Of a DNA stretch of 64,000 nt, positions 15,898-26,029 are shown in pieces. Each line of letters starts with the position of its first letter. The stretch's first letter is position 1. The translations under genes were made by a program, and so were the position numbers. This stretch comes from Propionispira arboris (GTDB lineage: Bacteria > Bacillota > Negativicutes > Selenomonadales > Selenomonadaceae). The stretch lies in contig NZ_FNZK01000016.1 of NCBI RefSeq assembly GCF_900109225.1, forward strand, positions 1 to 64,000, given 5' to 3'. Below the pieces are notes generated by a model, which worked only from the letters and a program-made list of their open reading frames with translations, was not told the DNA's origin and did not search any database.

Positions 15898-16896
15898 ATG
15901 GCAGAAAAAAAAGCCCTGCGTTGGGCAATTTTAGGGACAGGCGTTGTAGCAAATGAAATGGCTCAGGCGTTGACGAATGCGGGTAAAGAAATTTATGCCG
16001 TAGGCAATCGTACATATGACAAAGCCGTGGATTTTGCACAGAAATATCACATCAAAAAAGTTTATCAGGATTTTCACGAAATGTTTACGGATGAGACTGT
16101 TGATGTTATTTATTTAACAACACCACATAATACACATATTGATTTTATGCGCGAAGCAATCAAGCATGGCAAACATTTGCTCTGTGAGAAATCAATTACC
16201 TTGAACAGCCGTGAATTAAATGAAGCGGTCGAAGCCGCAAAAGAAAAAAATCTTGTTCTTGGTGAAGCCATGACGATTTATCATATGCCAATCTATAAAA
16301 AATTGAGAAAATACATGGCTTCGGGAAAACTTGGTAAGGTAAATCTTATTCAATTGAATTTTGGCAGTTATAAAGCCTATGACATGAACAATCGTTTTTT
16401 TAATATGTCATTAGCTGGTGGTGCTTTGCTTGATATTGGAGTCTATGCTTTTTCATTGGCACGGAGTTTTCTTGATTCAAAACCAAATGAAATTTTATCG
16501 AAAGTACAGTATGCAGCAAGTGGAGCCGATGAAAAATCTGGTTTTGTTATGACAAACAAAGAGGGGCAAATGGTTGTCGCATCTTTATCACTGCATTCCA
16601 AACAGCCTAAACGTGCCGTTATTTCTTGTGAACACGGCTATATTGAAATCATGGAATACCCTCGAGCTGAAGAAGCTGTCATTATCAATGCAGAAACTGG
16701 CGAACGAACCGTTTTACGGGTTGGGGAACAGAAAAAGGCTTTGCAGTATGAAATGGAAGATATGGAAGCTGCTATTGCGGGTGACATTGCGCTTATGCGT
16801 TTAGCGGATACGATTGATGTCATGGCAATGATGTCAGAAATCAGAACCGAGTGGAACATGTATTATCCTTCCGAAACACCTGGAGAAATTTTATAA
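15898..16896 (+). CDS. Gfo/Idh/MocA-family oxidoreductase
   Basis: 332-residue NAD(P)-dependent dehydrogenase. The N-terminal Rossmann domain has GTGVVANEMAQAL (about 14-26), the family EKSITLN motif (equivalent to EKP; about 95-101), then the C-terminal alpha/beta domain with GGALLDIGVYAFSLA (about 175-189; the G-x-x-D-x-x-x-Y/H catalytic segment). I chose ATG at 15898: GAGGAGG lies 9 nt before it. GTG at 15895 is equally reachable, while the more upstream TTG would overlap the site. Monocistronic, with a good promoter and terminator. The family oxidises sugars, inositols or dihydrodiols; the substrate is not predictable here. Confidence 0.9.
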   Translation: MAEKKALRWAILGTGVVANEMAQALTNAGKEIYAVGNRTYDKAVDFAQKYHIKKVYQDFHEMFTDETVDVIYLTTPHNTHIDFMREAIKHGKHLLCEKSITLNSRELNEAVEAAKEKNLVLGEAMTIYHMPIYKKLRKYMASGKLGKVNLIQLNFGSYKAYDMNNRFFNMSLAGGALLDIGVYAFSLARSFLDSKPNEILSKVQYAASGADEKSGFVMTNKEGQMVVASLSLHSKQPKRAVISCEHGYIEIMEYPRAEEAVIINAETGERTVLRVGEQKKALQYEMEDMEAAIAGDIALMRLADTIDVMAMMSEIRTEWNMYYPSETPGEIL

Positions 16897-16937
16897 ATCA
16901 TTCGTAGTCTTCGTTTCACAACAAAATATTTTTTCTG

Positions 16938-16984
16938 CAAAACAAGCAAAACCGCTCACAAAAGCGGTTTTGCTTGTTTTGTTA
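16938..16984 (+). terminator. Intrinsic terminator after the oxidoreductase gene
   Basis: Perfect 19-bp arms (16938-16956 and 16963-16981) around a 6-nt loop, core AAACCGCT/AGCGGTTT, followed by TTATTT. Confidence 0.88.
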
Positions 16985-17088
16985 TTTAATCCAACGGCCT
17001 GTCATGCATATAGATAATGCACCATAAATCTTGCCTCAATTATAAATGGACCTACTCTATTTTAACGGTTCTTACTTACTCACAACCG

Positions 17089-18369
17089 TTACTCTTCCAA
17101 CATGATTTTGATAATTTCCGTATCTGTATTTTTCATACCCTTACATGCAACCCGGCCAACAGCAGCAATCGTTTCTTCGATATTATTTTTTAAAATACCA
17201 TCGCCTGGTTGGTAATTTCTTCCACTCATGGCTAATACATGTGCCATGTATGCAGCATCTAAAGAAGAAGCAATTTTAGCTGCACAAGATGGTTTAGCTC
17301 CATCGCAGATAATTCCCGACACATTGGCTAGTGTATTACGAATTGTTACATTAATTTTTTCCAAGCTGCCCCCTGCAAGATAAGTTATTGCTGCTCCGCT
17401 GGAGCAAGAGGCACTAACGCCCCCACAAAAAGCCGATAATCTACCGATCAATGTTTTCTGGTGAATTGTTAATAGGTTCGCTAGCACGAGTCCCCTATAT
17501 AGTTTTTCTTCCGATAATCCCTGTTCTCTGGCATAAACAATAACCGGAACGGATGTCGCAATTCCTTGATTTCCACTACCCGAATTTGTTATAACTGGTA
17601 ATGCACAACCACTCATTCTAGCCTCTGATGCAGCAGCTGTATAGGCTTTTATCTTGACTTGTAAAGGTACATCACTGCCGCCTATGCCCAATAATGTCTG
17701 ACCAATATTCACACCATAATTTCCTGCTAACCCTGCCTCTGCAATTTTTATATTATAATCAATTTGCTGCGTAATAAGTTCACCCAATACATTTCGTGAA
17801 ATAATATTAGCAAATTCATAAATGTCTTTCACGTTAAGGACACTACGATCCGTAAAGCTGCCTAAATATTTATTAGCATTGTCATCATTTTGATAAACAC
17901 TTTTACCATTTTTCTCAATTCGACAAATATTCGTATGATTATACTTAATTTCTACTAACACAGAGTCCTGTCCAGCTGTTACTATCATAATGAGATGGAG
18001 ATTAATTTCCGTTTCCAATAATTCTAAATCACCAAATTTACAATCCAATAACTCTTTTACCACAGCCAAATCTTCTTGCGTCAATTGCGACAAAACTTCC
18101 ATTTTTTTATTTACTTGACCACCAACCAAACCGGCCAGCATACTGGCCCTAATACCGATCAATCCTTCGGTATTAGGTACTGTGACACTTTTTACATTTT
18201 TTAAAATATTCCCACTGCATTTCAATAAAACTTTTTCGGGAAAAGCGCCTAACATTTCTCTTGCTTTGGCAGCAATATAGGCAATCGCAATGGGCTCAGT
18301 GCACCCTAATGCCGGAACAAGTTCTTCCTTTAAAATTGCGATATAATCATCGCTGATTTTAGTATCCAT
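17089..18369 (-). CDS. CyuA/UPF0597-family L-cysteine desulfidase or serine dehydratase-like Fe-S enzyme
   Basis: 426 residues. Conserved cysteines sit where the family binds its [4Fe-4S] cluster and performs catalysis: PALGCTEPIAIAYIAAK (near residue 21), FCGGVSASCSSGAA (about 315-328) and ICDGAKPSCAAK (about 355-366); NSGSGNQG (about 270) is also family-typical. The expected reaction is alpha,beta-elimination of cysteine (H2S + NH3 + pyruvate) or serine. Start chosen at ATG 18369, which has GGAGGTGA 8 nt upstream; the upstream ATG (18387) is itself part of that site. It follows the PTS IIA gene by 63 bp on the same strand, an unexpected addition to a sugar operon. Specificity for cysteine rather than serine is inferred. 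Confidence 0.82.
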   Translation of the reverse strand: MDTKISDDYIAILKEELVPALGCTEPIAIAYIAAKAREMLGAFPEKVLLKCSGNILKNVKSVTVPNTEGLIGIRASMLAGLVGGQVNKKMEVLSQLTQEDLAVVKELLDCKFGDLELLETEINLHLIMIVTAGQDSVLVEIKYNHTNICRIEKNGKSVYQNDDNANKYLGSFTDRSVLNVKDIYEFANIISRNVLGELITQQIDYNIKIAEAGLAGNYGVNIGQTLLGIGGSDVPLQVKIKAYTAAASEARMSGCALPVITNSGSGNQGIATSVPVIVYAREQGLSEEKLYRGLVLANLLTIHQKTLIGRLSAFCGGVSASCSSGAAITYLAGGSLEKINVTIRNTLANVSGIICDGAKPSCAAKIASSLDAAYMAHVLAMSGRNYQPGDGILKNNIEETIAAVGRVACKGMKNTDTEIIKIMLEE

Positions 18370-18431
18370 CTTTATTGTCACCTCCATTTACTTGCACTAC
18401 TTACAATAAAATTTGAAAACTACCTTACTTA

Positions 18432-18758
18432 CTATTTATTGTTCTTTAATTCATTAATTTCATTTTGCATATAAATCATTTTTTCAATCAGATCTTTTGC
18501 CAGCATAGAAGTCATCAAGTGGTCTTGTGCATGTACCATTAATAAACTAAGTTCCAGCTTATCGCCACTAGATTCTTGCTGAATTAATTCTGTTTGAACT
18601 TTATGTGCGGCTATTAACCCTTCCTTTGCCATACCTATATAACGATTCGCTTTATCCATATTACCAGCTTGAGCTGCACCCAAAGCTTCAAAAACCGTAC
18701 TCCTTGCATCCCCTGAATTCGTAATTAATTGGAAAATTTTCGATGTTAGTTCGTCCAT
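18432..18758 (-). CDS. celC: PTS lactose/cellobiose-family EIIA
   Basis: 108 residues, the normal length for the trimeric all-helical IIA of the Lac family. The phosphorylated histidine lies in LSLLMVHAQDHLMTSM (about residues 71-86). It accepts phosphate from HPr and passes it to the EIIB encoded upstream (21682-22005). Ribosome site AGGAGG lies 5 nt before the ATG. It follows the GH4 gene at about 150 bp on the same strand; the gap contains a weak inverted repeat (AATCTTCC.. / ..GGAAGATT at 18810-18853) that could lower readthrough. Confidence 0.92.
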   Translation of the reverse strand: MDELTSKIFQLITNSGDARSTVFEALGAAQAGNMDKANRYIGMAKEGLIAAHKVQTELIQQESSGDKLELSLLMVHAQDHLMTSMLAKDLIEKMIYMQNEINELKNNK

Positions 18759-18907
18759 AATAACCTCCTGGTAGTAAAATTTTTTGTCATAATATAAACA
18801 ATCTTCCCTTCTGTTTGAAATAGTTTTATGACTATTCTTACAGCAAGGAAGATTGTTATCCTATCTACATAACTATATCATTTCTAACAATATCTTCTAT
18901 TTTGTCT

Positions 18908-20251
18908 TTATAATGAACTGTTTTTTTCTATTTCTTTGATTGCTTTTGTAAATTGCGGCAAGTAATCTTTATGTGCCAATAACATTTCATTTAAAATTGT
19001 TTTAGCAATTTCTCCAGAAGGAATTAACGGATTCAAAATAAATGCTTGTAAAGCTTTCGCATAACTGCCAGTAACAGCAGCTTCAATCGTTACTTCTTCC
19101 ATAGCTTTCATCAATTGCACCATGCCACGCATAGCTGGTTTAAATTTTCCAAAAGTGAGCGGTCTGGGTCCAATACCTGTTATGATACTACTTACTTCTA
19201 CAACACATTCATAAGGTAAGTCCGTTAATGCTCCATGATTACGCGTACTTACAACCATCTCTGTCTTTTTATTGTTCAATATTGAACAAATAAGTTCACA
19301 AGCAGCATCTGAATAATGCGTTCCACCACGTTTCGTTAACTGTTCCGGCTTGTCTTTTAGGTTGGGATCTTTATATAGTTCAAATAACTCAGCTTCTAAT
19401 TTTTTTACCAACTCGGCACGTGTAGTGTGGTTTTCATAATTGACTACTTCTTTTTTTACCATATCATCTGTCAAATAATAATATTGATGATAGCTGCATG
19501 GTAACATTCCTAAATCACGAATCTGTTCTTCACAGAAGGGAACAAATTCAATATTTTCCATGGTACTTTCTTTCTGTTCAAATAATTTTTCCATAACCAA
19601 GGCTGTTAAATCATCGCCCGACTTATCGTATATTTTGTGCCAATGATGATGATTTAATCCTGCATATTGGAATATTAATTCATCCGGTGATTTTCCGATT
19701 AGCTTAGACTCCCGAAAATTATGATTTATTGGCACATTGCACAAGCCAACCACTTTTTCGAAATTTCCATAATTAAGAACTGCTTCTGTTATCATCCCAG
19801 ATGGATTTGTGAAATTAACAAGCCATGCATTGGGGCACAATTTTTTCATATCATTAACAATATCTAAAATTACAGGTATTGTCCTTAAAGCTTTAAAAAC
19901 TCCTCCGGCTCCATTCGTTTCTTGTCCTAATACACCATATTTTAATGGTATACGTTCATCTTTAATTCTAGCATCTAAGAGTCCGACTCGAAATTGGGTC
20001 GATACAAAATCAGCATCTTTTAATGCTTCTTTTCTATCCAAAGATAAATGAATCTCCCAATCCAGTCCAGCTTTTTTGACCATGCGTCTTGCCAGATTGC
20101 CGACAATTTCCAATTTTTCTTTTCCAGCTTCAATATCAACTAACCAAATTTCTTTTATTGGCAGTTGATCTTTTCTAACAATAAATCCTTCTATCAATTC
20201 CGGAGTATAGCTTGAGCCTCCTCCAATAGTAACAATTTTAATTTTTTTCAT
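18908..20251 (-). CDS. celF: GH4 6-phospho-beta-glucosidase
   Basis: 447 residues; NAD+- and Mn2+-dependent hydrolase that cleaves the phosphorylated disaccharide made by the PTS. N-terminal Rossmann motif is TIGGGSSYTPEL (about 8-19). The substrate/metal-binding segments GVLGQETNGAGGVFKALRTIP (about 106-126), FTNPSGMITEA (about 148), GLCNVPINHN (about 170, metal Cys) and GLNHHHW (about 198) are all visible. Ribosome site GGGGAGG lies 8 nt before ATG. Lies between EIIC and EIIA genes in a cellobiose-type operon, so the likely substrate is cellobiose-6-phosphate or another beta-glucoside phosphate. Confidence 0.94.
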   Translation of the reverse strand: MKKIKIVTIGGGSSYTPELIEGFIVRKDQLPIKEIWLVDIEAGKEKLEIVGNLARRMVKKAGLDWEIHLSLDRKEALKDADFVSTQFRVGLLDARIKDERIPLKYGVLGQETNGAGGVFKALRTIPVILDIVNDMKKLCPNAWLVNFTNPSGMITEAVLNYGNFEKVVGLCNVPINHNFRESKLIGKSPDELIFQYAGLNHHHWHKIYDKSGDDLTALVMEKLFEQKESTMENIEFVPFCEEQIRDLGMLPCSYHQYYYLTDDMVKKEVVNYENHTTRAELVKKLEAELFELYKDPNLKDKPEQLTKRGGTHYSDAACELICSILNNKKTEMVVSTRNHGALTDLPYECVVEVSSIITGIGPRPLTFGKFKPAMRGMVQLMKAMEEVTIEAAVTGSYAKALQAFILNPLIPSGEIAKTILNEMLLAHKDYLPQFTKAIKEIEKNSSL

Positions 20252-20293
20252 AATAGGTTCCTCCCCTTATCAACTTTTCGCATGATAAAAACT

Positions 20294-21685
20294 TTATTTA
20301 TTGACGTCATTAACGCTTTCAGCTTCTTGTTTTATACATTGCTTCTCATAAATTTTAAAAAATGGATAATATATTACAAAGTCTATTACAATCAAGCATA
20401 ATATCAAGACTGCTGCATGCCAATCCATTGTAGAAAGGAATGCCCCTATCGGTGCAGGCGTTGTCCATGGCGCAGTAACAAAAGTAGCACCGACTAGTCC
20501 CATCTCCGTAACCACATAGGCAATAACACCATTAATTCCCTGAACAAAGACAAAAGGTAAAAATAAAATAGGATTAAAAATCAATGGCAAACCAAAAATA
20601 ATCGGCTCATTAATATTAAATAAACCAGGTAATAATCCAATACGCCCTATTCCTTTAAGTTGTTGCGATTTACTCCACAATAACATAAAGACTAACGCTA
20701 AAGTAGCCCCGGATCCGCCTAATTGCATATAGAAATCTTGAAATGGTGTCGTATAAATATGTTCCAAAGGCAGCCCTGCAATTTTATCAGAAGCATTCGC
20801 TAAAAGATTGCTATCTAAAAACGGTCTGCTTACTCCACCGATAATGGCAGGTCCATGTAATCCTATAAACCATAACAAATTCATCATAGTCGCTATGACA
20901 AAAGTGCCACCTGCACTATCTACAGCACCAACAAATGGCGCCAGACTTTTCATTATAGCTTCCGGTATAAGCATTCCAAAAGTCGATTCACATAATAAAC
21001 TAATCAGATGAAAACCAAACACACAAATAATCAATGGAATGAGTAATTCAAAAGAAGAAGCAACGGCTGGTGGTACACCTTTTGGCATTTTTATTACAAT
21101 ATTTTTCTTTTTTAACCACCGAGCAATTTCAACGACCAGCAAGCCTACTAGAATTGCCGTAAACATCCCTTTAGCATCCATAAATTTCAAAGGTAATGCA
21201 TCTTGTCCTAATTTGCTTATTAAGGGATAACCCATACTATCATTTATTTTAGAAAGAACTACGACGCTTTGAGAAGGCGCCGCAACCAGCAAAAAAGTCG
21301 CAGCTGCCGTCATCGCACCAGAAAGTGGATTCATCTTGTAAGAAATCGATAAATTATACCCTACTGCCATAGCAACAAATAAAGCCATAATTCCCATAGT
21401 CATATTAAATGGTGCCAAAATTGTTGCCATATTGGCACTTGCCCAGCTATGCCACACTAAAAGCATTTGAGTGAAAATATTCGGATTATCATTTACCCGC
21501 GTAGGATCAATTGGTGGAAAAGCCATTATCAAGCTTATCCCGCCCACAATTGTCAAAGGGACAGCGGCAATAACACCATTACGCACAGCTAAAATATGCT
21601 TTTGATTAGCAAATGAAGCAGCCATTGGACCAATTTTCAGTTCCAAAAACTGACTAAATTTTTCAAAAATGTTCATGTGATTCAT
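20294..21685 (-). CDS. celB: PTS cellobiose-family EIIC permease
   Basis: 463-residue inner-membrane channel of the Lac/cellobiose PTS family, about ten helices. Characteristic segments: VRNGVIAAVPLTIVGGISLI (about 33), WFIGLHGPAIIGG (about 271; the conserved H-G-x-x substrate loop) and GLFNINEPIIFGLPLIFNP (about 351; the NEP motif). Start ATG at 21685 overlaps the EIIB stop (ATGA) and has AGGAGC 7 nt upstream. It imports and phosphorylates the beta-glucoside together with EIIB and EIIA. Confidence 0.94.
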   Translation of the reverse strand: MNHMNIFEKFSQFLELKIGPMAASFANQKHILAVRNGVIAAVPLTIVGGISLIMAFPPIDPTRVNDNPNIFTQMLLVWHSWASANMATILAPFNMTMGIMALFVAMAVGYNLSISYKMNPLSGAMTAAATFLLVAAPSQSVVVLSKINDSMGYPLISKLGQDALPLKFMDAKGMFTAILVGLLVVEIARWLKKKNIVIKMPKGVPPAVASSFELLIPLIICVFGFHLISLLCESTFGMLIPEAIMKSLAPFVGAVDSAGGTFVIATMMNLLWFIGLHGPAIIGGVSRPFLDSNLLANASDKIAGLPLEHIYTTPFQDFYMQLGGSGATLALVFMLLWSKSQQLKGIGRIGLLPGLFNINEPIIFGLPLIFNPILFLPFVFVQGINGVIAYVVTEMGLVGATFVTAPWTTPAPIGAFLSTMDWHAAVLILCLIVIDFVIYYPFFKIYEKQCIKQEAESVNDVNK

Positions 21686-22005
21686 GTTCTTGCTCCTAAT
21701 GCCTTATTTTTATATAACTCTTTAGCAGCCTGCAAAATATGATCTCCTCTGCAACGTCCATAATCCATAGTATTAATTACGGCTACAGGAATATTTACCC
21801 CCGCAATCTCTTGAAACTCATCCTTTTTAAATCGAACTTGCGGACCTAATAATACGACATCATATTCACTTACCACCTCATGAAATTGCTCAGATGGCTC
21901 CGCTGAAATCACCCAATCTTTTTCCGCTTCACTTAAAGCATCCTGCATACTTTCTGCAACTAAACTAGTAGACATACCCGCAGCACAAACTAATAGTATT
22001 TTCAT
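21682..22005 (-). CDS. celA: PTS lactose/cellobiose-family EIIB
   Basis: 107 residues. The phosphocysteine is Cys7 in MKILLVCAAGMSTS, with the P-loop-like AAGMSTS after it. First gene of the operon; its start lies 46 bp downstream of a sigma-54 promoter. GAGGGTG precedes the ATG. Confidence 0.94.
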   Translation of the reverse strand: MKILLVCAAGMSTSLVAESMQDALSEAEKDWVISAEPSEQFHEVVSEYDVVLLGPQVRFKKDEFQEIAGVNIPVAVINTMDYGRCRGDHILQAAKELYKNKALGART

Positions 22006-22050
22006 GTTTACACCCTCTTTTCTATATGAATTTATCTATACTTACTTATA

Positions 22051-22068
22051 TTGCAAATATCATGCCAA
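22051..22068 (-). promoter_or_regulatory. Sigma-54 (-24/-12) promoter of the cellobiose PTS operon
   Basis: Minus-strand TTGGCATGATATTTGCAA: the GG of -24 and GC of -12 are both present with the right spacing (consensus TGGCACG-N4-TTGC). It lies between the EIIB gene and the gene for the sigma-54 activator, exactly where such a promoter is expected. Confidence 0.88.
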
Positions 22069-22081
22069 CTTTCTAAGTAAA

Positions 22082-22120
22082 AAAAAGCGAGAGTTTTCCT
22101 AACGAAAACACCTCGCTTTT
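22082..22120 (-). terminator. Terminator of the activator gene
   Basis: Arms AAAAGCGAGAGTTTTC (22083-22098) and GAAAACACCTCGCTTTT (22104-22120), one small bulge, followed on the minus strand by a T-run. It separates the activator transcript from the sigma-54 promoter downstream, and lies between the enhancer repeats and that promoter. Confidence 0.85.
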
Positions 22121-22131
22121 CCTGGTGAATC

Positions 22132-22191
22132 ATACACAATTCATACACTATTGCTTTTTCTACCGATAAATATACACTATTAATACACTAT
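22132..22191 (-). promoter_or_regulatory. Enhancer-like paired direct repeats (LevR-type activator site)
   Basis: Four near-identical 9-mers, ATAGTGTAT on the minus strand, at 22191-22183, 22180-22172, 22151-22143 and 22140-22132 (the last reads ATTGTGTAT). They form two pairs with 11-bp spacing and 40 bp between pairs, about one helical turn and four turns. They lie 80-140 bp upstream of the sigma-54 promoter, the usual place for an enhancer. The first repeat overlaps the activator stop codon. Confidence 0.7.
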
Positions 22192-24923
22192 GACTGTTTT
22201 ATAATTTGCAAAATAAAGCATATCTCATCCATATTAATATCAAGCGAATAGGCTTGTTCAATAACCGCTAGAGTCTGCTTTATTTTATCAATCTCTACCG
22301 TATATTCTTGTAATATATTTTTTTTATTTTTACACTCACGAGTTTTTTTACCATCCAACAAAATATCAATCGCACAAGTTACATGAAAAATCAATCCCAC
22401 CATAGTATCTTTATCTATAACAATATGCAAAGTATCTTCCAAATTTTTTATAAACAACTCAAAATATTGCTTGAATTCATCAACATCAATATATTTTAAT
22501 TTGTCTTTAATAGCATCAAAAACTTGATTTTTGATTTCCATCATGTCCGTTGCACTAACCTCTGTAATAACTTGTGCACTTTTTACTAAATCCCGAATTT
22601 TATCATAACGGTTAAACATAATTAAATCTGATAATGAAATAAATGGAATCCCATAAAAATGTGGATTTATTGTACCTACAATTGCAATAATTGTACGATC
22701 ATTTGCAATTTTTTGTAATCTTTTTTCCAGTTCCTGATCATCACTAATAGACATTGGTAAAATTTCTACATGTTCTGTCTTAACATCCACATTATCTTCA
22801 ATTAAGTTTTTAATTTTCACAGCACTACCTTCACCAGTTACACAAAGAGTAATAATGACAAATTCACTATTTACTTTAAAGTCCTTAAATAGTTCTGTGC
22901 CATAACTTAATGACATTGGAACTGTATCACGAAGTGATTGACATATAAGATCAATATTATTTTCTACCGCTACTTTCCGTGCCGCCTCTAATGCCATAAC
23001 CGTAGTAACTAAATGAATCACTCGCAAATCAATGCCTAATTCTTCACTAATTAATTCGCCAAAGGTTCCAAGAGATCCCATATCAACAAGTAAAATCACA
23101 CTGCAAGGGTTATTAACTTTTATTAATTGTTTAAGTTCCTCATAGCAAATCTTTGAACTTTTATCCAGGTTCATATCATAAGCTAGCACATACTGAATTC
23201 CCAACAGGCAATTAACCACTTCAGCCATTGAACTGGCTGTGCTTCTACCATGCATAGCTATAACTAACAACGGATGATTTTTTTGGTATTCACCTTCTAT
23301 TTTATCAATACTTAAGAACATTGTAATAAAGGCAATTTCCTCTACAGGTATTTTCACATCATATTCGTGTTCTAATTTGCGACAATAATCATGGACAACT
23401 TTAAATTCTTCTGGGTACTTTTCTAAAATCTCGCCAAATTTATAATTAATGATTGGTTTCCCTATGCGCATTCTTTCCAAACTGGCCTGCATATGTAAAC
23501 ATAAACTGTGGAAAACTTTAACAGGAAAAACCTTGTGCAATTCTTTGCCAGCATAACCTAATAAACCATCAACAAATTTAATTGTATTTGCATTTACAAT
23601 TTTAGAAATTTCCATTGTATAGTCATCAAAATTTCTGATATATTTATTAAAATAACCTTCAATTTCCGTAGTCATTATCAGTCGAATATCTTCTTCACTA
23701 TATTGACGGCTATGCAACTCTTCCAATTTTTTTTCAATCTGCCCATAAAAGTTGTTTTTATATTTGCTTATATCTATTTCATTAGAAAATTCTAACTCTT
23801 TGCCAGCAAAAGAAAACCAGTGCTTATTTTGAATAATTTCTTCTATTTTTTCAGAATGATCCTTCAGATACAACATTCCTTGTTTAACATAATCAGGGAG
23901 ATGATGTAATTCAATTGTAAATTTTTTCTGCATCTCGCCAATACAATCTAAAAACGCATTTGCACAAGTTAATTTAATATCACTTTTTAATTGTCCTATA
24001 TTGCCTATGCACGGATATAATAATAAACTTTTTATTACTTCATCCGTTACAATGATTCGCCTATTTACCTGTCGTGACTCTTTTTGAAAAAAATCACTGA
24101 TTAACAAAAATCGTTCTTCCAATGTCCGCTCTTTTAACGACGGAATACAAATCGTCATAGGAATTCTACGTTTAAATGTTTGCAATAAGGATGTATCTAC
24201 TTGTTCTGTAGTCGCACACACCAGAAGAATATTGACTTTCTTTTTTACTGTATCTCCCAACGAGCAAAATTCACCCTTGTCTATTAAATAAAACAAAAGC
24301 TCCTGCCCTTCCGCAGGCAAACGATGAATTTCATCCAAAAACAGTACGCCTCCATCAGCTTTTTCAACTATGCCATGATGTTCTCGTTCTGCACCAGTAT
24401 ATGCACCTTTTTTATATCCAAATAATTGTCCTATGAGTAATTGTGGATTATTTGAATAATCTGCACAATTGAATTCTATAAATGGAGAATTCAAAGGCAT
24501 CACACCATTTTCACTAGCAAACTTATGCATTAAGCTGGCAAACATGGTTTTCCCGACACCTGTAGGTCCTAAAAGTAAAGTATGAATTCCCTTTGGAGGA
24601 TATAACACTGCGGCCTTCGCCTGACGAATTATTTTTTTTAAGCTGCCGCTGCTTCCAATCAATGTAGAAAAATCAACCTCATCGTTGCTCCTATAGATTG
24701 TTTTTTCTATTTCATCGGAAATAACATATCTAACGGGACGACCCTCTATTTTTTTAAGTTGTCCTTTTCGATAAAGCTTATTTAATACGGCACTCACATT
24801 ACTTCGAAGTGATCCTACATATCGTGTAATCTCATTCGTTGTATGCCCTTGTCCGATTTTATTGTTTACACTCTTTATCTCTAAAAATTCAAATATTTTT
24901 TCTTCTAAACTTTTTTTCTCCAT
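22188..24923 (-). CDS. LevR/ManR-type sigma-54 activator with PRD and PTS domains
   Basis: 911 residues. Order: N-terminal winged helix (about 5-70), AAA+ domain with Walker A GPTGVGKT (119-126), GAYTGA loop (173-178; contacts sigma-54) and Walker B GGVLFLDEI (191-199). A first PRD (about 440-550) follows, then a mannose-type EIIA domain with phosphorylatable His in IAMHGRSTASSM (about 558), a galactitol-type EIIB-like domain beginning ITLCVTGEGSA (about 695), and a second PRD (about 800-905, His in LIFHVTCAID). The activity is set by PTS phosphorylation: HPr at PRDs activates, EIIB-linked phosphorylation inhibits. ATG at 24923 has GGAGG 5 nt upstream. It sits head-to-tail with the PTS operon it should control through the visible enhancer and -24/-12 promoter. 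Confidence 0.92.
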   Translation of the reverse strand: MEKKSLEEKIFEFLEIKSVNNKIGQGHTTNEITRYVGSLRSNVSAVLNKLYRKGQLKKIEGRPVRYVISDEIEKTIYRSNDEVDFSTLIGSSGSLKKIIRQAKAAVLYPPKGIHTLLLGPTGVGKTMFASLMHKFASENGVMPLNSPFIEFNCADYSNNPQLLIGQLFGYKKGAYTGAEREHHGIVEKADGGVLFLDEIHRLPAEGQELLFYLIDKGEFCSLGDTVKKKVNILLVCATTEQVDTSLLQTFKRRIPMTICIPSLKERTLEERFLLISDFFQKESRQVNRRIIVTDEVIKSLLLYPCIGNIGQLKSDIKLTCANAFLDCIGEMQKKFTIELHHLPDYVKQGMLYLKDHSEKIEEIIQNKHWFSFAGKELEFSNEIDISKYKNNFYGQIEKKLEELHSRQYSEEDIRLIMTTEIEGYFNKYIRNFDDYTMEISKIVNANTIKFVDGLLGYAGKELHKVFPVKVFHSLCLHMQASLERMRIGKPIINYKFGEILEKYPEEFKVVHDYCRKLEHEYDVKIPVEEIAFITMFLSIDKIEGEYQKNHPLLVIAMHGRSTASSMAEVVNCLLGIQYVLAYDMNLDKSSKICYEELKQLIKVNNPCSVILLVDMGSLGTFGELISEELGIDLRVIHLVTTVMALEAARKVAVENNIDLICQSLRDTVPMSLSYGTELFKDFKVNSEFVIITLCVTGEGSAVKIKNLIEDNVDVKTEHVEILPMSISDDQELEKRLQKIANDRTIIAIVGTINPHFYGIPFISLSDLIMFNRYDKIRDLVKSAQVITEVSATDMMEIKNQVFDAIKDKLKYIDVDEFKQYFELFIKNLEDTLHIVIDKDTMVGLIFHVTCAIDILLDGKKTRECKNKKNILQEYTVEIDKIKQTLAVIEQAYSLDINMDEICFILQIIKQS

Positions 24924-25105
24924 AAAGTCCTCCATATTTCCCCTAAAGCACCTATACTGAGTTAAATTAATGGGGTGAATTGGCAACCGTTCGTTGGGTT
25001 TTTACATAATTAGTTGAATATATACTTTATTTAATTGTAATAAATTGCATTTTTTATTGCAGTGATATCTTTGGTTATACCATAAATGAAATCGATCTGC
25101 AACCT

Positions 25106-25162
25106 GAAAAATAGCCGTGGATCAATACTTAGACTATCCGTATTGATCCACGGCTATTTTTC
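25106..25162. terminator. Very stable bidirectional hairpin/terminator
   Basis: Perfect 23-bp arms (25106-25128 and 25140-25162; core AGCCGTGGATCAATAC) with an 11-nt loop and T-runs on both sides. No gene ends next to it; it may serve the gene at 25448 about 290 bp upstream, or a lost gene. Confidence 0.75.
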
Positions 25163-25279
25163 TTTACAGACTCGCTTTATCTTTTCATACCACTAAGAGA
25201 TCATTTCAACCAGCTGTTATATAAGGAACATCGCGTATCAGAAGCTTATTTCTTAACAAAAAGAGATCACCTATAGATT

Positions 25280-25447
25280 TTTTAATTTCTACAAGTGACC
25301 TCACTTACCGCAAAAATAACTTCATGTCTTGCCTTACAGTCTAAATTTTCCATAATACTTTGCCTAAGTTTCATACAACCTGACTACATTTCTTCCTCAT
25401 GAAGCATAATAACAATGGTCACCATATGAGAATCAGCAATAACTATA
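25280..25447 (-). pseudogene. Possible decayed coding remnant
   Basis: Minus-strand frame reading ...IADSHMVTIVIMLHEEEM, a TAG, then SGCMKLRQSIMENLDCKARHEV... to a TAA. It continues for about 54 codons in one phase across the TAG and has amino-acid content like a real protein. The family is not recognised. It could also be chance. Confidence 0.25.
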
Positions 25448-26029
25448 CTATTGATTAATCCATAGTCCGTGTTCTTTACAGCAATAATAAAGTGTTCCAC
25501 GCTGGCGTTTTGGAAAACGCACTTCGCCGCCCTGCTCTGGATACAACTTAATCAGAAGCACCCTGTCACACGTTACGTAAGCAAAAAAAGTGAGGTAATG
25601 CTTTTTTGTCATTTCATGTTTAAATGTGATATAAAAATCCTCCTCAATTTCTTCTACATTTATTTTGTGCATATCATCGGCTGTTTTTGCTACGAGTGGC
25701 AAAAGTTTCCGACCACAACAAGAAATTGCTGCCTCACCTGTGCCTGTTAAGATATTTCCACAATGAGGACATTCATAAAATTTAATTCGTTTCATATTGC
25801 CTCCATCGATATCATTCGGATCTAAATTTCCTAATAGGATTTTTTCAATATGTACGCCCAAGATATCAGAAAGAGATTTTAATAAAGATACATCTGGACA
25901 GCCCAAGCCACGTTCCCATTTAGATATAGTTTTATCGCTGATATTCATTGCATCTGCCAGTTGTTTTTGCGTCATCTTTTTTTCTTTACGCAAATCAAAA
26001 ATCAATTTTCCAACCCTGCTGCAATCCAT
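25448..26029 (-). CDS. XRE-family regulator with C-terminal zinc-ribbon/desulfoferrodoxin-like domain
   Basis: 193 residues. HTH_3 domain at about 5-60 (LRKEKKMTQKQLADAMNISDKTISKWERG). A second domain starts YECPHCGNIL (about 85) with further Cys (SCCGRK) and a beta-rich part ending RGTLYYCCKEHGLW, like the domain found in many clostridial XRE proteins and related to desulfoferrodoxin's N-terminal metal site. Start chosen at ATG 26029, which has GGGGGTGA 5 nt upstream. Stands alone. A metal- or redox-sensing role is inferred from the cysteines only. Confidence 0.85.
   Translation of the reverse strand: MDCSRVGKLIFDLRKEKKMTQKQLADAMNISDKTISKWERGLGCPDVSLLKSLSDILGVHIEKILLGNLDPNDIDGGNMKRIKFYECPHCGNILTGTGEAAISCCGRKLLPLVAKTADDMHKINVEEIEEDFYITFKHEMTKKHYLTFFAYVTCDRVLLIKLYPEQGGEVRFPKRQRGTLYYCCKEHGLWINQ

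Follow-up and report, generated by a model that had tools for sequence, protein, structure and literature searches.

A probable sigma-54 control unit with legible half-sites ahead of a beta-glucoside PTS operon in Propionispira arboris

Four short repeats in the genome of Propionispira arboris are very probably the UAS of a LevR/CelR-type sigma-54 activator, whose gene adjoins a PTS operon with a -24/-12 promoter. This assignment is based on the sequence word GTGTAT, its orientation and its spacing of approximately 10.5 bp, all of which recur in related loci, and on the fact that the sites follow the promoter where the activator gene is divergent. We consider it likely that the local activator, the half-sites, the sigma-54 promoter and looping of the DNA between them together switch on the beta-glucoside PTS operon. 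An earlier note on this DNA had proposed a complete sigma-54 control unit, and this proposal is supported by the LevR-type domains, the presence of rpoN and a clade-wide word with fixed orientation and helical spacing upstream of the -24/-12 element.

Results

Organization of the locus

The analyzed stretch comprises 64,000 nucleotides (hereafter the window). The features relevant to the control unit are all encoded on the minus strand:

22188..24923, minus strand: LevR/CelR-type sigma-54 activator (winged HTH, AAA+ with GAYTGA loop, PRD, EIIA-Man-like domain, second PRD)
22183..22191, minus strand: candidate UAS half-site 1, ATAGTGTAT; contains the activator stop codon; unchanged in the sister species
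22172..22180, minus strand: candidate UAS half-site 2, ATAGTGTAT; 11 bp from site 1
22143..22151, minus strand: candidate UAS half-site 3, ATAGTGTAT; 29 bp from site 2
22132..22140, minus strand: candidate UAS half-site 4, ATTGTGTAT, which differs from the others at one position; 11 bp from site 3
22080..22123, minus strand: intrinsic terminator hairpin with T-run (-21.4 kcal/mol, z -5.3), between UAS and promoter
22052..22068, minus strand: -24/-12 promoter, TTGGCATGATATTTGCA; transcription would start near 22041
21682..22005, minus strand: PTS EIIB, lactose/cellobiose family (PF02302)
20294..21685, minus strand: PTS EIIC, lactose/cellobiose family (PF02378; TIGR00410 at 370 bits, cut-off 236)
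18908..20251, minus strand: GH4 6-phospho-beta-glucosidase (534 bits to the solved 6-phospho-beta-glucosidases 5c3m and 1s6y)
18432..18758, minus strand: PTS EIIA, lactose/cellobiose family (PF02255)
17089..18387, minus strand: serine-dehydratase-alpha-family protein (PF03313)

For the GH4 enzyme, the best maltose-6'-phosphate glucosidase (alpha-type) scored 226 bits compared with 534 bits for the beta-type. The apparent end of the operon is the serine-dehydratase-alpha-family gene, which the 44-bp gap suggests is possibly its last member.

The activator had been described as LevR-type from its sequence, in agreement with the domains found by Pfam, i.e., Sigma54_activat (PF00158, 8e-41), two stretches of PRD (PF00874) and EIIA-man (PF03610). 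Its reading frame was taken from the ATG at 24923 (alternatives at 24935 or TTG 24986) to the TAG stop codon at 22190-22188. Within the AAA+ domain, the Walker A motif GPTGVGK and the GAYTGA loop are readable. The N-terminal HTH is of the TrmB-type winged kind in 23 of 24 domains and is predicted to adopt a wHTH fold (pLDDT 82), for which Foldseek returned generic winged-helix matches only (best E 3e-4). The nearest solved relatives of the EIIA domain are 3gx1 and 3gdw. Residues H478, H559, C695 and H848 are invariant in all 15 aligned activators and, judged by position, are probably the counterparts of the residues given as regulatory for CelR in the available text of PMC10864463. LevR-type activators would also have an EIIB-Gat-like domain with a cysteine; C695 is such an invariant cysteine, but Pfam gives no EIIB or EIIB-Gat match in the activator.

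Promoter and terminator

Within the window, TTGGCATGATATTTGCA is the sole zero-mismatch match to TTGGCANNNNNTTTGCA. With two mismatches allowed, 19 hits were obtained where 16.3 would be expected, and weight is therefore given to the exact match alone. On genome level, the exact -24/-12 consensus TTGGCAYNNNNNTTGCW occurs 32 times versus once for the reversed control, and a single rpoN gene is present.

The terminator of the activator gene, previously noted between repeats and promoter, was confirmed as a strong hairpin at 22123-22080; none of 200 shuffles was as good, although a simple terminator scan missed it. In the sister species the stem carries one change, which would give G-T for G-C (read by eye). 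The hairpin would end the activator mRNA between UAS and promoter, the UAS being squeezed into the last part of the activator gene and the 3' UTR, and the operon is therefore presumably insulated from read-through.

Comparison with 19 clade loci in which the activator lies upstream and is co-oriented (hairpins read by eye, with L070 standing in for the near-identical unit of the window) placed a hairpin between UAS and promoter in seven (L070, L075, L078, L082, L083, L086 and L087). In eight, the hairpin comes after the stop codon but ahead of most of the UAS; in the remaining four it is weak or overlaps the sites. The order in the window is thus one of two recurring solutions, found mostly where the intergenic region is short. 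Separately, in L081 and L084 the half-sites are themselves part of a terminator-like hairpin.

Repeats upstream of the promoter

The half-sites start at 22191, 22180, 22151 and 22140, giving start-to-start distances of 11, 29 and 11 bp and a distance of 40 bp from pair to pair. The four 9-bp repeats of the earlier note are hence present on the minus strand, only three of them being exact, with ATTGTGTAT as the fourth. The helical phasing claimed for them stands within each pair, as 11 bp is about one turn; at 40 bp, or 3.8 turns, the phase between the pairs is only approximate. The 11 bp fits the family discussed below, in which a spacing of 41-42 bp is common, slightly longer than the 40 bp between the pairs of the window. 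The repeats lie 64-123 bp upstream of TTGGCATGATATTTGCA, counted to the first T of TTGGCA, instead of the 80-140 bp given before, and approximately 91-150 bp from the presumed start site near 22041. In the sister species Propionispira raffinosivorans, the closest named relative, every base of the four repeats is identical, which weighs little because the two are 98% identical.

In the 4.26 Mb genome, ATAGTGTATNNATAGTGTAT at up to one mismatch is confined to the two pairs described here. With as many as three mismatches it is not enriched genome-wide (nine matches versus 12 for the reversed pattern), and no further convincing operon emerged. A count of repeats paired at 11 bp across the window (24, compared with 6-24 after first-order shuffling) was uninformative as a test.

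A conserved word in related loci

A search for relatives provided 80 named loci, of which the 24 nearest were analyzed; in the neighborhood of all 24 there are matches to EIIB and EIIC of the lactose/cellobiose family. A promoter above the score limit was found beside the activator in 21 (L073, L080 and L091 were left uncounted), and the paralogue L018 extended the set to 22 promoters. GTGTAT occurs on the promoter strand in 59 copies in 21 of the 22 promoters, whereas shuffled sequences had 3.6 on average and at most 9. Its reverse complement ATACAC is found seven times (shuffle mean 1.2), GTGTAT thus being mostly in one orientation. The conserved context of the half-site is A/T A/T GTGTAT A.

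A non-redundant set of 17 promoters was obtained by removing L092, L070 (the sister of the window) and the near-duplicates L083, L085, L089 and L090 and adding the window; L092, which had been part of the 22-promoter set and of the first phasing test, fell outside the clade in the tree. An unseeded hexamer count returned GTGTAT as the most enriched word (20.9-fold), present in 17 of 17 promoters. Considering this recurrence, together with the restriction of perfect and one-mismatch pairs to this locus, we regard it as extremely unlikely that the repeats have merely gathered by chance in AT-rich DNA next to a genuine sigma-54 promoter, even though the paired pattern at up to three mismatches is no commoner than its reversed control.

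Adjacent copies of GTGTAT cluster at spacings of 11, 20-21 and 41-42 bp. Pair distances follow a period of 10.4-10.5 bp (R 0.65, 0 of 2,000 jitters as high), and the phasing persisted without the window (0/2,000) and with one closest pair per locus (0/5,000). Helical phasing can therefore be considered a property of the activator family, with the loci being related by descent and hence not fully independent. Phasing of the half-sites against the -24 element (R 0.58, 1/2,000) is suggestive only, since the control hexamer TATATA reaches R 0.44.

The same data bear on an alternative view, in which the repeats are no operator but belong to the activator gene as a 3' UTR or RNA element. This view is invited by their overlap with the stop codon and their position ahead of the terminator. 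At L018 and L072, however, where the activator gene is transcribed divergently, the position and orientation of the sites with respect to the promoter are retained. The helical spacing is indicative of double-stranded DNA, and a scan of 16500-26000 gave no match to an Rfam family. We consider an RNA element very improbable.

In a FastTree phylogeny of 109 LevR-type activators (L027, L079, L099, L114 and L123 were skipped, having no frame long enough for the filter), the protein of the window belongs to a clade of 23 with SH-like support of 100. Within it, 17 members show the direct-repeat layout and three had no promoter found; the other three (L088-L090) lack the layout, with few or no GTGTAT upstream. 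Promoter layout agrees with the phylogeny: four layout labels mapped on the tree required nine changes, whereas shuffled labels required 43.1 on average (none of 200 shuffles as low), a count that near-copies among the loci favor.

Paralogous activators and specificity

Among the 32 exact -24/-12 sites of the genome, four have at least two copies of GTGTAT on the promoter strand in the preceding 300 bp: those of the window, of L018, of L025 and of one mannose-type PTS operon at G000:C30. The genome search suggested by the earlier note thus yielded three other GTGTAT promoters, but no other paired 9-mer within one mismatch. L018 (G000:C36), 44% identical, adjoins a promoter with four copies of TTAGTGTAT at exact 20-bp steps, which precedes a second lactose/cellobiose-family PTS operon. 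The promoter adjoining L025 (G000:C28) has three direct TAGTGTAT plus inverted copies, one copy abutting the -24 element.

As TAGTGTAT stands in other layouts beside the promoters of these two paralogues, another activator could bind the repeats of the window, and the 9-mer alone defines no operator private to the local protein. The claim that the operator is directly readable holds for the word; the word is, however, common to L018 and L025, and the conserved core is GTGTAT after A/T, not the whole 9-mer. It is conceivable that L018 or L025 mainly reads the repeats, the local activator serving elsewhere, or that all three cross-talk on shared TAGTGTAT. Four copies of the word at the L018 promoter and three direct plus inverted copies at L025 speak for such an arrangement. 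Each activator, however, has sites beside it that are arranged in a distinct way (11/29/11, 20/20/20 and mixed orientation), and in related genera the word tracks the clade of the adjacent activator. Overall, control by a paralogue appears unlikely.

Specificity among the paralogues may instead lie in layout rather than letters. We tentatively propose, as a possibility somewhat short of an even chance, that the LevR/CelR clade uses a one-word code of same-strand GTGTAT at multiples of approximately 10.5 bp on one face of the helix, with paralogues of one genome, whose words are almost identical, distinguished by layout (11/29/11 versus 20/20/20 versus mixed).

For control by the local activator, a sequence of events can be outlined. 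In the presence of the sugar, PTS phosphorylation would relieve PRD inhibition, by analogy with work on CelR and LevR. The activator would then assemble on the same-strand half-sites facing one side of the helix, and the short DNA between UAS and promoter would loop, allowing the AAA+ ring to open the closed complex of the sigma-54 polymerase at TTGGCATGATATTTGCA. As a consequence, the EIIB-EIIC-GH4-EIIA operon would be switched on for a beta-glucoside, cellobiose being a plausible inducer.

Further observations on LevR-type activators

For LevR-type activators of a sister group, 17 of 19 promoters have a half-site in inverted orientation (ATACAC, GACAC or TGCAC) in the 14 bases that precede TTGGCA, compared with none of 23 clade-A promoters. 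The sister-group promoters come from the loci L019, L025, L028 and L051-L069. The letters of the inverted half-site agree with the upstream sites of its own promoter (104 matches versus 43.5 with swapped upstream regions, 0/2,000), and a promoter-proximal docking or blocking site is a possible function. In 14 other promoters from 12 loci (L044-L046, L100, L105, L109, L115, L121, L127, L139, L140 and L143), GTGT in direct orientation adjoins the -24 box or overlaps it.

Seven of the 14 LevR-type activators of the genome (L020-L024, L029 and L030; e.g., G000:C15:97647-97811) have an N-terminal domain matching the sigma-54 DNA-binding (RpoN-box) domain, with another HTH-like segment behind it; L183-L202 are of the same kind. 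A search of 80 genomes of the class gave approximately 48 hits with frames of 961-1046 aa in 14 genomes, including this one. In the domain alignment 19 of 19 hit PF04552, and the best solved match of the profile is the sigma-54 RpoN domain 2o8k (E 2.4e-12), which is also the top Foldseek match of the predicted fold (E 0.016, probability 1.00). An activator would thereby use the sigma factor's own promoter-reading domain. Sites resembling -24/-12 elements lie approximately 39-46 bp before the start codons of the activator genes L024, L029, L192, L196, L197, L200 and L202, which suggests self-activation of RpoN-box activator genes.

Comparison with known systems

CelR of Clostridium acetobutylicum is reportedly likewise a PRD-containing sigma-54 activator with HTH, AAA+ and EIIA domains, and its cellobiose-type PTS operon has several UAS copies ahead of a -24/-12 promoter. 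Its motif (Nie 2016) may already hold part of the GTGTAT rule. CelR of Bacillus thuringiensis has the same HTH, AAA+, PRD and EIIA domains and serves a cellobiose-type PTS operon whose -24/-12 promoter is preceded by several UAS copies; UAS mutants lose activity, according to the available text (PMC10864463). The same text gives that operon a CcpA cre site, whereas no cre-like site with up to two mismatches was detected in 21901-22413 of the window. With a beta-glucoside PTS and a phospho-beta-glucosidase, the operon of the window has the content of the CelR type, to which we liken it by description.

LevR of Bacillus subtilis shares the domain order and sigma-54 dependence, its UAS lying approximately 125 bp upstream of the start (PMC10864463, available text). 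LevR serves the levanase operon, whereas the unit described here serves a lactose/cellobiose-family PTS. The levanase operon includes a fructose/mannose-type PTS.

For 57 Clostridiales species, UAS and -24/-12 elements of PRD-EBP groups, with a CelR group named, were reconstructed comparatively, giving the consensus TTGGCATNNNNNTTGCT and placing most UAS 100-250 bp upstream (Nie 2019, PMC6615313, available portion). That portion held no UAS letters for the PRD groups and no helical rule, and Negativicutes are outside the coverage of the study. The UAS of LpoR of Enterococcus faecalis was called as-yet-unidentified in 2021 (PMC8262876, excerpt). In the excerpts returned by a literature search, no description of the GTGTAT rule, of a half-site abutting the -24 element or of RpoN-box domains in PRD activators was recognized.

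UAS sites of LevR-type activators are poorly defined, and a clade-wide word, orientation and spacing rule could here be read from sequence. Because the rule is readable, a few spacing and half-site mutants could test how the activator docks and how paralogues avoid cross-talk. In kind, the control unit, whose binding and function we infer, is ordinary among PRD-containing enhancer-binding proteins and -24/-12 PTS promoters, but it is unusually legible.
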